Positions 1 to 47,857 of a stretch of 64,000 nucleotides of DNA are shown here, in pieces. The notes under the pieces are model-generated. The model did not search any database. It was not told the DNA's origin and was given only the letters and a program-made list of their open reading frames with translations. The stretch comes from Agelas oroides. Its lineage: Eukaryota; Porifera; Demospongiae; Agelasida; Agelasidae. The stretch's first letter is position 1, and the number at the start of each line of letters is the position of its first letter. The DNA lies in NCBI GenBank assembly GCA_949130485.1, contig OX422204.1:6684620-6748619 (forward strand), in the 5' to 3' direction. The position numbers and the translations under genes are program-made.

Positions 1-3000
1 AACCAATACCTACCTTTCTGCCATGGCCGGACTGGCCGAGGACACAAATGCTGTCTCAAGCGTCCAAGTGCCCACATCTGAAGCCATACGAGTGAGGAAC
101 TTTATCCGAGATACTTCTGCGCCAAGTGTCATCAACTTTGCCCTTGACACAAACTCTGGAGAGATGGTGGTCACCTTCAACGATGTCATCAACGCCTCTA
201 CGTTTGACGTCAGCGCAGTGACGCTTCAGAGTGCTATCTATCGTGTTCCTATGCAGTGGCACACTCTGAGCCAAAGTTCCTCCAGTCATTCCTTCAACAA
301 TGGATTCGGAGTGACCATCTTCCTTGGCATGGATGACCTGAATCGAGTTAAACAAATTCGGAACCTTGCAACTAGCAGAGACAATACTTACCTAACTGTG
401 GCCGCCACTATTGCAGATGACGTGAATGGGGAGGACACAATTGCAGTCACAGACGGAAAATCACTCCAAGTTAGCGCCTTCACTGGTGATACCACAAGGC
501 CAGTTGTGGAGGACTGGACTCTTGAAATGGACAGCGGACAGATCATCCTTACATTCTCAGAAACTGTCGACATTCGGACACTTCAACCTTCCGAGATTAC
601 AATCCAAGTGGCGAGAAGCACCACTGATTCCTACCCTCTCACAGATTTTAGTGCCCTGATCCCTCCAGATGCTGACTATCGGTTTGCAATCCAGCTAGCC
701 GAGGCAGACGCGAACTTTATCAAAGCACACACTGGTTTAGGGACCTCACAAGACAACTCCTATCTCACGATCTCTGCAGCTGCAATTGCTGACACAAGCT
801 CAAACGCTGTAGTTGCAATACTAAATGGACAGGCACTACAAGCTGGGACATTTGTCTCAGATGGCTTAAGTCCGGTTCTTCGATCGTTCTCCCTGGATTT
901 GAACTCGGGTCTTCTTCGACTTACTTTTGACGAGACAGTGTACGCTGGGTCCTTCAATGTGTCTGCGCTTGCCCTCGTGAACAGAGGAACACGTCCCAAC
1001 TCAAGGCATGTCCCTATTAATAGCACACCCTCAACCACAAACAGTAGCGTAATGGTCGTAACTCTAGCAAAAACTGACCTGGATGCCATTAAAGCCATCA
1101 CTGATCTAGCTACCACACTGAGTGACACCTTTCTTACCGCTGACTCGTTCGCTGTGCGTGATATGAATGACAATCTCTTGACGGAAATCACCAGTGATGC
1201 AGCTGTCCAAGCATCCATGTACACCCAAGATACGACCCCACCCCAACTTGAAAGCTTCTCACTCAATTTGAGTTCAGAAGAAATTGTGCTGACATTTTCT
1301 GAAACAGTTCAAGTTAGCAGCCTCGATCCCACTCAGATTACCATCCAACAGCTACCTAGCAGGTTGGGCAGAACCATCACTCTCAGCGGTGGGACCACCT
1401 CCCAAGGAAACGCAGCAGTTGTCACGTTACGCCTAACAGAGGAGGACGCTAATGCTCTAAAACTCTACCGCGACATTGCCACTTTAACGAGCAATACCTT
1501 CATTTCTCTGACTCCCAATACCATCCGGGATCCAGCTAGCAATTTACTAGTGGCCGTACCCTCCACTAATGCCAGACGGGTGAACGTACTTACCCAAGAC
1601 ACCGTCTCCCCACGGCTAGTTAGTTTTAGTCTTGACTTGAACCAGACAACGCTTTCACTGACGTTTGATGAAACTATTGACTCTAGTACTTTCAGTATCA
1701 TCAGCGTGGGGCTACAAGACAGGATGACGAATCCTACACAATCTGTCCGATTGGGCGCTCGGAGTACGACTCAGAGTACGGATGGTACCGTGTTCATGAT
1801 ACGCCTCTCTGCAGATGACTTTAATGCAATCTCGGCCATGTTCCCCCTTGCTACCATGGAAACCAACACCTACCTTACCCTACTACCTGCAACAGTGCTG
1901 GACACAAACGGAAATCCTAGCATTGAAGTACCAACTAACAACGCACTCAGAATTACTAGCCACACGGCTGACACAACCCGACCATCACTCAGTGCTTTCG
2001 ATTTTGATCTAAATCTCGGAATTGTAACCCTGGTGTTTTCTGAATCAGTCAATGCCTCAACTTTTAACCCAACTCAAGTCACGTTCCAAAGTGCACCTTC
2101 GAGCCCCCTGCACACATTTTCTCTCACCGGGGGGCAAATCTCGCAACCCGAGTCCACTACTATTGACATTGACCTACTTCGGAATGATCTGAATACGATA
2201 AAGGCCATGACTGATCTTGCTTCATTGGCTAGCAACACTTACATCAGCATTACATCAGCAACTGTCCGAGACATGAATACAAACATGGTGACACCTGTCA
2301 GTATGAGCAATGCACAACTAGTGAGGGAGTTTACCCAGGACAGAAGTGGACCAATTCTTGAACGATTTGACCTGGATTATGATAATGGTGCCTTGACCCT
2401 GTACTTTGATGAAACGGTCACCGTGGATACTCTTCAAACTAGTACAATTTCATTTCAGGCAGCTGACACTCTGACTGGCAACTCACATACCCTCTTCAAC
2501 AGTACTCGGCTGGACTCCGGACTACTTACCGTTGCAAGAGTACAGCTGTCAAATAGTGACTTGAATGAACTGAAACGACTTCAAATTTGCTCAACACCTA
2601 CCAGTTGTTATATTTCAGTTACTAGGACACTTGTAGAAGATGTTGCCTCTAATCAGAACATTGAAATTACAGGGGCTTCCCCTCGACCTGTGTCCAATCA
2701 CATCCAAGATACAACCAATCCAAGAGTACTGCAATATCACGAATTTGACCTCAATTCAGGTATATTTACTTTTGCGTTTTCAGAAACAGTTGATGTCTCC
2801 ACTCTCAACCAGTCACAAATCGAACTTCACAGTGACTATATCAACTCTTCCCACATCTTCACATTTGAAGGCTTGAGTCCAATTGGAAGTGACAGCCATA
2901 TTGTGACTTTCCAACTTGGGAGTGAAGATTTGAACCGGCTCAAACTTAACACTGATTTATGCACTCACAGTGGCAACTGCTGGGTTCGATTCTCTAGTGA

Positions 3001-47857: not shown

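Follow-up and report, generated by a model that had tools for sequence, protein, structure and literature searches.

The analyzed window is a 64,000-nucleotide (nt) stretch of the genome of the sponge Agelas oroides (contig OX422204.1, below C22, positions 6684620–6748619 of the plus strand, within a 259.3-Mb assembly of 141 contigs), and it contains most of a giant gene designated here as W. Judging from its predicted domains and modeled fold, W is rather likely to be a five-exon gene for a secreted, thread-like structural glycoprotein, which would serve as an extracellular strut or mesh fibre and would be one of a family of giants. Two sister genes, A and B, and a partial copy of A were found in the same genome. 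The models of the three genes are predictions from genomic sequence.

Structure of gene W

In the window, the exons 1–5333, 5557–17013, and 17409–47857 (all on the plus strand) are joined into 15,745 stop-free codons, and the frame is closed by its only stop, the TGA at 47855–47857. The stop-to-stop frames underlying the joined exons span positions 2–5566, 5397–17285, and 17330–47854. The first segment is the in-window part of exon 3, which starts at −1304 (C22:6683315; negative numbers are window coordinates upstream of the stretch) and has a GT donor at 5334. This segment and exon 4 (11,457 nt) are open frames filled with repeat profile matches, and exon 5 (30,449 nt) is a single open frame up to the stop. 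According to base composition, approximately 528 stop codons are expected in exon 5, and the other five frames of this exon contain 272 to 894; since none is found inside the coding frame, its openness is not due to chance. The sequence-only reading had proposed three exons in one frame over this number of codons, and both GT-AG joins were reproduced together with their coordinates.

Both introns in the window are of phase 1. The intron at 17014–17408 carries a (GT)n tract and splits a repeat. The junction 17013/17409 is well supported, because the repeat restored by joining scores 130.1 bits, the second best among 128 profile matches. The borders of the GT-rich and CT-rich intron at 5334–5556 are less certain. 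Its junction, 5333/5557, falls between two repeat matches that are separated by a 14-residue linker. Ten alternative GT-AG pairs that are in frame and stop-free were found nearby, so that the true position could differ by about ten residues or more. When these alternatives were compared by eye, the 5333/5557 pair had the best-looking donor and acceptor, though a long linker remains.

The 5′ end, which the earlier reading had described as missing, was sought in the 20 kb upstream of the window and was located within 2.5 kb of it. The start codon lies at −2495 (C22:6682124), and the upstream exons span −2495 to −2423 and −1947 to −1824, followed by exon 3 from −1304 to 5333. The first exon (73 nt) encodes ATG with a hydrophobic, signal-peptide-like leader and ends at a gtaagt donor; the second is 124 nt long, and the phases are consistent. 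The leader was one of three candidates listed in a hydropathy scan and the sole one adjoining the gene. The complete model thus comprises five exons and encodes 16,246 amino acids (aa; 1.78 MDa). From exon 3 to the stop, the coding sequence of 48,544 nt is interrupted by only two GT-AG introns. The proposals of one giant gene and of a missing 5′ end are thus borne out.

Repeat domain, C-terminal tail and chemistry of the protein

The W protein consists of approximately 120 diverged copies of one repeat of about 123 aa, followed by three TIG domains and one Calx-beta domain. A profile search places the tandem array at 1–46516 of the window on the plus strand, and four of the repeats start upstream of it. 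3D modeling of the repeat using the AlphaFold2 program predicts an immunoglobulin-like (Ig-like) fold with a predicted local distance difference test score (pLDDT) of 97.6, and the junction between domains is also confidently predicted. The best match of the predicted fold among solved structures is the bacterial S-layer protein SbsC, and the predicted structure has the features of an SbsC-type Ig-like domain. The repeat shares its predicted fold with the SbsC/SbsA-type bacterial Ig-like domains (S-layer; Big_5, PF13205). The identity is only 13%, however, and the W family is eukaryotic with introns and has copy numbers ranging from more than one hundred to more than three hundred. Near-invariant positions of the repeat, as found in 559 repeats, are D3, F25, E27, D75, and D103.

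Pfam and NCBIfam scans used 95 of the 128 W repeat matches, namely, those near full length and within one exon. In three pieces of W and in the 95 repeats, no convincing match of a Pfam model to the repeat was obtained. Big_5 was found in 7 of the 95 repeats at E ≤ 0.1 (best 1.1e-4) and gave no row in the three W pieces or in the 600-aa start of A. PF18564 (glycoside hydrolase family 5 C-terminal) reached 22.7 bits against a whole-protein cut-off of 22 in one of the three W pieces, with no single stretch passing, and matched 2 of the 95 repeats (best 1.2e-4); we read this similarity as a distant Ig-like likeness rather than a sign of an enzyme. No Pfam row for I-set, FN3, kinase, or cadherin was obtained in the three W pieces or the 95 repeats. 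A search of PDB by sequence returned one row only, at chance level (E 0.76). The 21 NCBIfam families found, with one member each among the 95 repeats, were taken as chance. As for bacterial or viral relatives, short patterns matched 1 stretch (six patterns) and 14 stretches (one pattern) of a viral contig set and 24 stretches (one pattern) of a genome contig set; none of these was matched by tblastn, and no bacterial relative was found in the latter set. Because so few short patterns were used (six, one, and one), these searches argue only weakly for the absence of bacterial or viral relatives.

The tail of W lies on the plus strand at the end of exon 5. Three IPT/TIG domains occupy approximately 46529–47389 (PF01833, E 9.2e-29, three stretches). 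They are followed at 47396–47632 by the Calx-beta domain (PF03160, 30.2 bits, just above the cut-off of 27) and then by about 74 residues before the stop. In addition, two Ser-Gly-rich inserts were recognized on the plus strand as gaps between repeat matches. The first, at 23024–23206, contains SGSGSGSG in a repeat loop and is a candidate glycosaminoglycan attachment stretch; the second is located at 42110–42304. The SGSG motif was counted 27 times in W against 0.31 expected and 9 times in B against 0.27, while A contains 1 against 1.08. N-glycosylation sequons exceed expectation in all three proteins (W, 399 vs. 235; B, 416 vs. 236; A, 792 vs. 594). The proteins are acidic, with an isoelectric point (pI) of 4.05–4.07, and lysine is scarce (0.76–1.06% of residues). 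The observed/expected CpG ratio is 0.28–0.38 in the coding sequence of A, B, and the last exon of W, which may mean heavy gene-body methylation.

These properties could also indicate that W and B are proteoglycan-like cores of adhesion or self-recognition, in which glycan chains would adhere, the repeats would act as spacers, and the TIG/Calx-beta tail would bind Ca2+ or receptors. The SGSG excess in W and B, the Calx-beta domain of W, and the acidic pI are all consistent with such a role. We regard it as unlikely, given that W has a single Calx-beta, that a search around the ends of A and B revealed none, and that A shows no SGSG excess. A parallel is offered by matrix proteins with Calx-beta domains, such as the sponge aggregation factors: W resembles them in having one predicted Calx-beta and in being acidic and, presumably, secreted, and Ser-Gly inserts occur in W and B. 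Unlike the aggregation factors, W is dominated by the SbsC-like repeat and has only one Calx-beta. Aggregation factors also carry a Wreath domain; no Wreath row turned up in the scans made, whose libraries were not checked for this model.

Sister genes, selection and surrounding sequence

A 681-aa piece from the C-terminus of W was used to search the genome, and 65 of 484 first-look candidates were scored. At least 109 matches were detected, all within the window or three other places; since only this part of the candidates was scored, the family may have further members. According to the gene models, the family has no fewer than three giant members here, namely, W, B, and A, in addition to a partial copy of A.

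Gene A is located on the minus strand at C22:1791719–1918041. Its exon 1 (64 nt, ATG at C22:1918041) encodes a leader, and the N-terminus is signal-peptide-like. Exon 2 (124,922 nt, C22:1916640–1791719) contains no N and no internal stop over 124,920 nt, and the other five frames contain 976 to 4,098 stops; the longest open frame in 10 base-shuffles of this exon (three frames) was 246 codons. The predicted protein of 41,661 aa (4.48 MDa) has 335 repeat matches, 332 of them near full length. The description of W as being among the largest animal proteins is fair for this gene and, in view of A, understates the family. Gene A is followed, after about 0.5 kb, by a gene for deoxyhypusine hydroxylase (best PDB match 4d4z). 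Gene B is found head to head with A, the starts being approximately 4.1 kb apart, on the plus strand at C22:1922175–1970627; the intron-free model encodes 16,151 aa with 132 repeat matches and about 126 copies. The partial copy of the 5′ part of A lies at C2:1604001–1631694 on another contig, starts at the A exon-2 border, and continues past the stretch given. It shows 87.7–89.8% DNA identity with A over the matched pieces and contains seven times in tandem a block of approximately 1,512 bp that is present once in A.

Comparison of A with the C2 copy, performed over open frames outside the amplified block, gave 0.276 synonymous (dS) and 0.080 nonsynonymous (dN) substitutions per site and a dN/dS of 0.29 over 4,120 codons, and a dN/dS of 0.22 over 1,999 further codons. 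A simulated neutral lineage with half of the substitutions acquired a mean of 15.2 stops over 200 runs and never fewer than 7; the compared stretches hold none. The dN/dS of 0.29 indicates that the A protein is under selection. For W, best-partner repeats have identities of 0.53, 0.62, and 0.34 at codon positions 1, 2, and 3, a pattern expected if the protein is constrained; this evidence is supportive rather than independent, as the partners were chosen by protein identity. The earlier argument that so long a frame in strongly diverged repeats can persist only under selection on the protein is therefore borne out most directly in A; W has no close copy to measure.

The same data bear on the possibility that the giant gene died recently, as a pseudogene that has not yet acquired stops. 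The C2 copy, with its frame break and fresh tandem amplification, and the ends of A inside a repeat and of B at a repeat edge would suit such a history. By our estimate, a freely drifting C2 copy would give a dN/dS of approximately 0.5 or more. Both measured values lie below this level, and the codon-position identities in W also speak for a functional protein, which makes a dead gene the least probable explanation of all those considered.

An error of assembly or reading, in which the array was inflated or several genes were fused, is nearly as improbable. The arrays are indeed known from assembled sequence, but mis-joined arrays yield near-identical copies, whereas the repeats here are strongly diverged. 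Among 543 repeats compared, the best-scoring partner never exceeded 56.4% protein identity, and no internal DNA match of at least 100 bp exceeded 74% identity; the sequence-only reading had named an artefactual array as what would overturn it. The uninterrupted exon 2 of A and the mere two introns in the W coding sequence from exon 3 onward also argue against this explanation.

A tree of 559 of the 598 repeat matches has no terminal branch shorter than 0.24. The genes are mixed in the tree, less so than at random (151 label changes vs. a mean of 202 in 200 shuffles, minimum 187), and its cherries are AA 96, AB 29, AW 25, BB 20, BW 20, and WW 18. The arrays are old and were probably already of great length when the genes diverged. 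In A, the repeat offsets 291, 246, 23, and 303 exceed the 95% shuffle level (48.2), although 291 and 303 rest on few pairs; in B, offset 33 reaches 62.4 against a level of 59.5, and no offset in W rises above the 95% level of shuffles. The offsets above this level reflect old block duplications. On visual inspection of the first 40 best matches between genes for each of the three pairs, no colinearity of the A, B, and W arrays was seen. The family could have arisen by ancient duplication, within exons, of single repeats and of blocks, and then have been conserved for a long time; growth of this kind fits because the exons are very large and the repeats uniformly old.

Several points weigh against the reading of W, A, and B as intact genes for one kind of secreted thread. 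Gene A stops in the middle of a repeat and B at a repeat edge, and a tblastn search for the TIG/Calx-beta tail near their ends (C22:1770001–1791900, including 2,500 N, and C22:1970001–1980000) returned two chance-level rows (E 1.0 and 5.5), so both genes could be truncated or incomplete at the 3′ end. As B also starts with only half a repeat, small exons could be missing from the models of A and B. The frame of the C2 copy is broken once (C2:1613830–1613867), so this copy may be decaying, and the dN/dS values come from stretches that are open frames outside the amplified block. Finally, since A lacks an SGSG excess, a proteoglycan role would apply to W and B alone.

As for the sequence surrounding W, the open frames upstream, from −6731 to −4144, look by eye like fragments of a Gypsy-type retroelement, being integrase-like and having a tail that is protease-like and PHD-like. 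These retroelement-like fragments, the introns, the deoxyhypusine hydroxylase gene beside A, and the CpG-depleted coding sequence in a genome of 259 Mb all indicate a eukaryote, and the domain content and CpG depletion fit a sponge. Downstream, minisatellites were found at 48515–49127, 52147–53292, 53443–53851, 56274–57788, and 62306–62656, with units of 41, 61, 54, 72, and 87 bp, respectively; the units are 89% alike in the first and 98–99% in the other four. By eye, the 87-bp unit contains an internal inverted repeat, and the longest frame downstream of W (263 codons) runs across this array. No Rfam match at the gathering threshold and no tRNA match was found in the window.

Possible role and comparison with other giant proteins

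The proposed secreted glycoprotein would enter the secretory pathway by means of its leader, and its domains would fold one after another into a stiff thread. Assuming 4–4.5 nm per domain, the thread would be approximately 0.5 µm long for W and B and 1.3–1.5 µm for A. It would carry N-glycans and be strongly acidic (pI about 4.05); glycosaminoglycan may also be attached to the Ser-Gly inserts of W and B. By analogy with cadherins, the rod may be stiffened by Ca2+ bound to the conserved Asp and Glu residues. The TIG/Calx-beta tail of W might dock the thread to partners, perhaps via Ca2+. Such a molecule could act as a long extracellular strut or mesh fibre of the matrix or glycocalyx, bridging distances beyond the reach of short matrix proteins.

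A more specific assignment would place the protein in the flagellar vane or the collar mesh of choanocytes, as a secreted, micrometre-long glycoprotein filament beside the flagellum or between microvilli. A single-file thread of 335 Ig-like domains has approximately the right length at the assumed spacing, a fit of size that is suggestive only, since the same length would suit other matrices. According to PMC9671500, choanoflagellate vane filaments are extracellular, about 3.5 nm thick, of unknown make-up, and extend to the edges of fields 1.2–3 µm wide. The same source states that after some 80 nm the filaments branch to form a mesh, that proteinase K failed to remove the vane, and that sponge vanes are narrower, denser, and more massive in appearance, all of which is harder to reconcile with the threads predicted here. 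Vanes are termed glycocalyx fibres in PMC7755389, where they are described as spanning the collar in demosponges and glass sponges. On balance, this identity is improbable, and slightly more so is its fuller form, in which A would be a single-molecule ruler of approximately 1.3–1.5 µm setting the vane width and W and B would be shorter or cross-linking members.

Among known giants, human connectin (titin) is similar in size; PMC12198301 gives it a length of 38,138 aa when all exons are joined, a mass of 4.2 MDa, and a largest exon of 17,106 bp. By these values, A is 1.09 times as long as titin, and the largest titin exon is exceeded 7.3-fold by the 124,922-nt exon of A and 1.8-fold by the last exon of W. 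Both titin and the W family are giant chains of Ig-type beta-sandwich domains of a similar size class. In contrast to cytoplasmic titin, the W family is presumably secreted and has no I-set, FN3, or kinase domain in the parts scanned.

No report of the W, A, or B genes was found among the open-licence papers listed, judged by titles and the starts of abstracts. Another giant eukaryotic protein in the size class of A is PKZILLA-1 of Prymnesium parvum (45,212 aa), but it is an unrelated polyketide synthase enzyme. Given this size, A would not be the largest protein predicted in any organism. To our knowledge, no larger animal protein is known, and A is the longest yet predicted in an animal.

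If the models hold, A, with its 41,661 aa, exceeds the above length of human titin, and it would show that a non-muscle, secreted protein can attain the size of titin. This would raise questions on how a 4.5-MDa chain is translated and secreted, and it would provide a molecular candidate for long extracellular filaments of unknown make-up.
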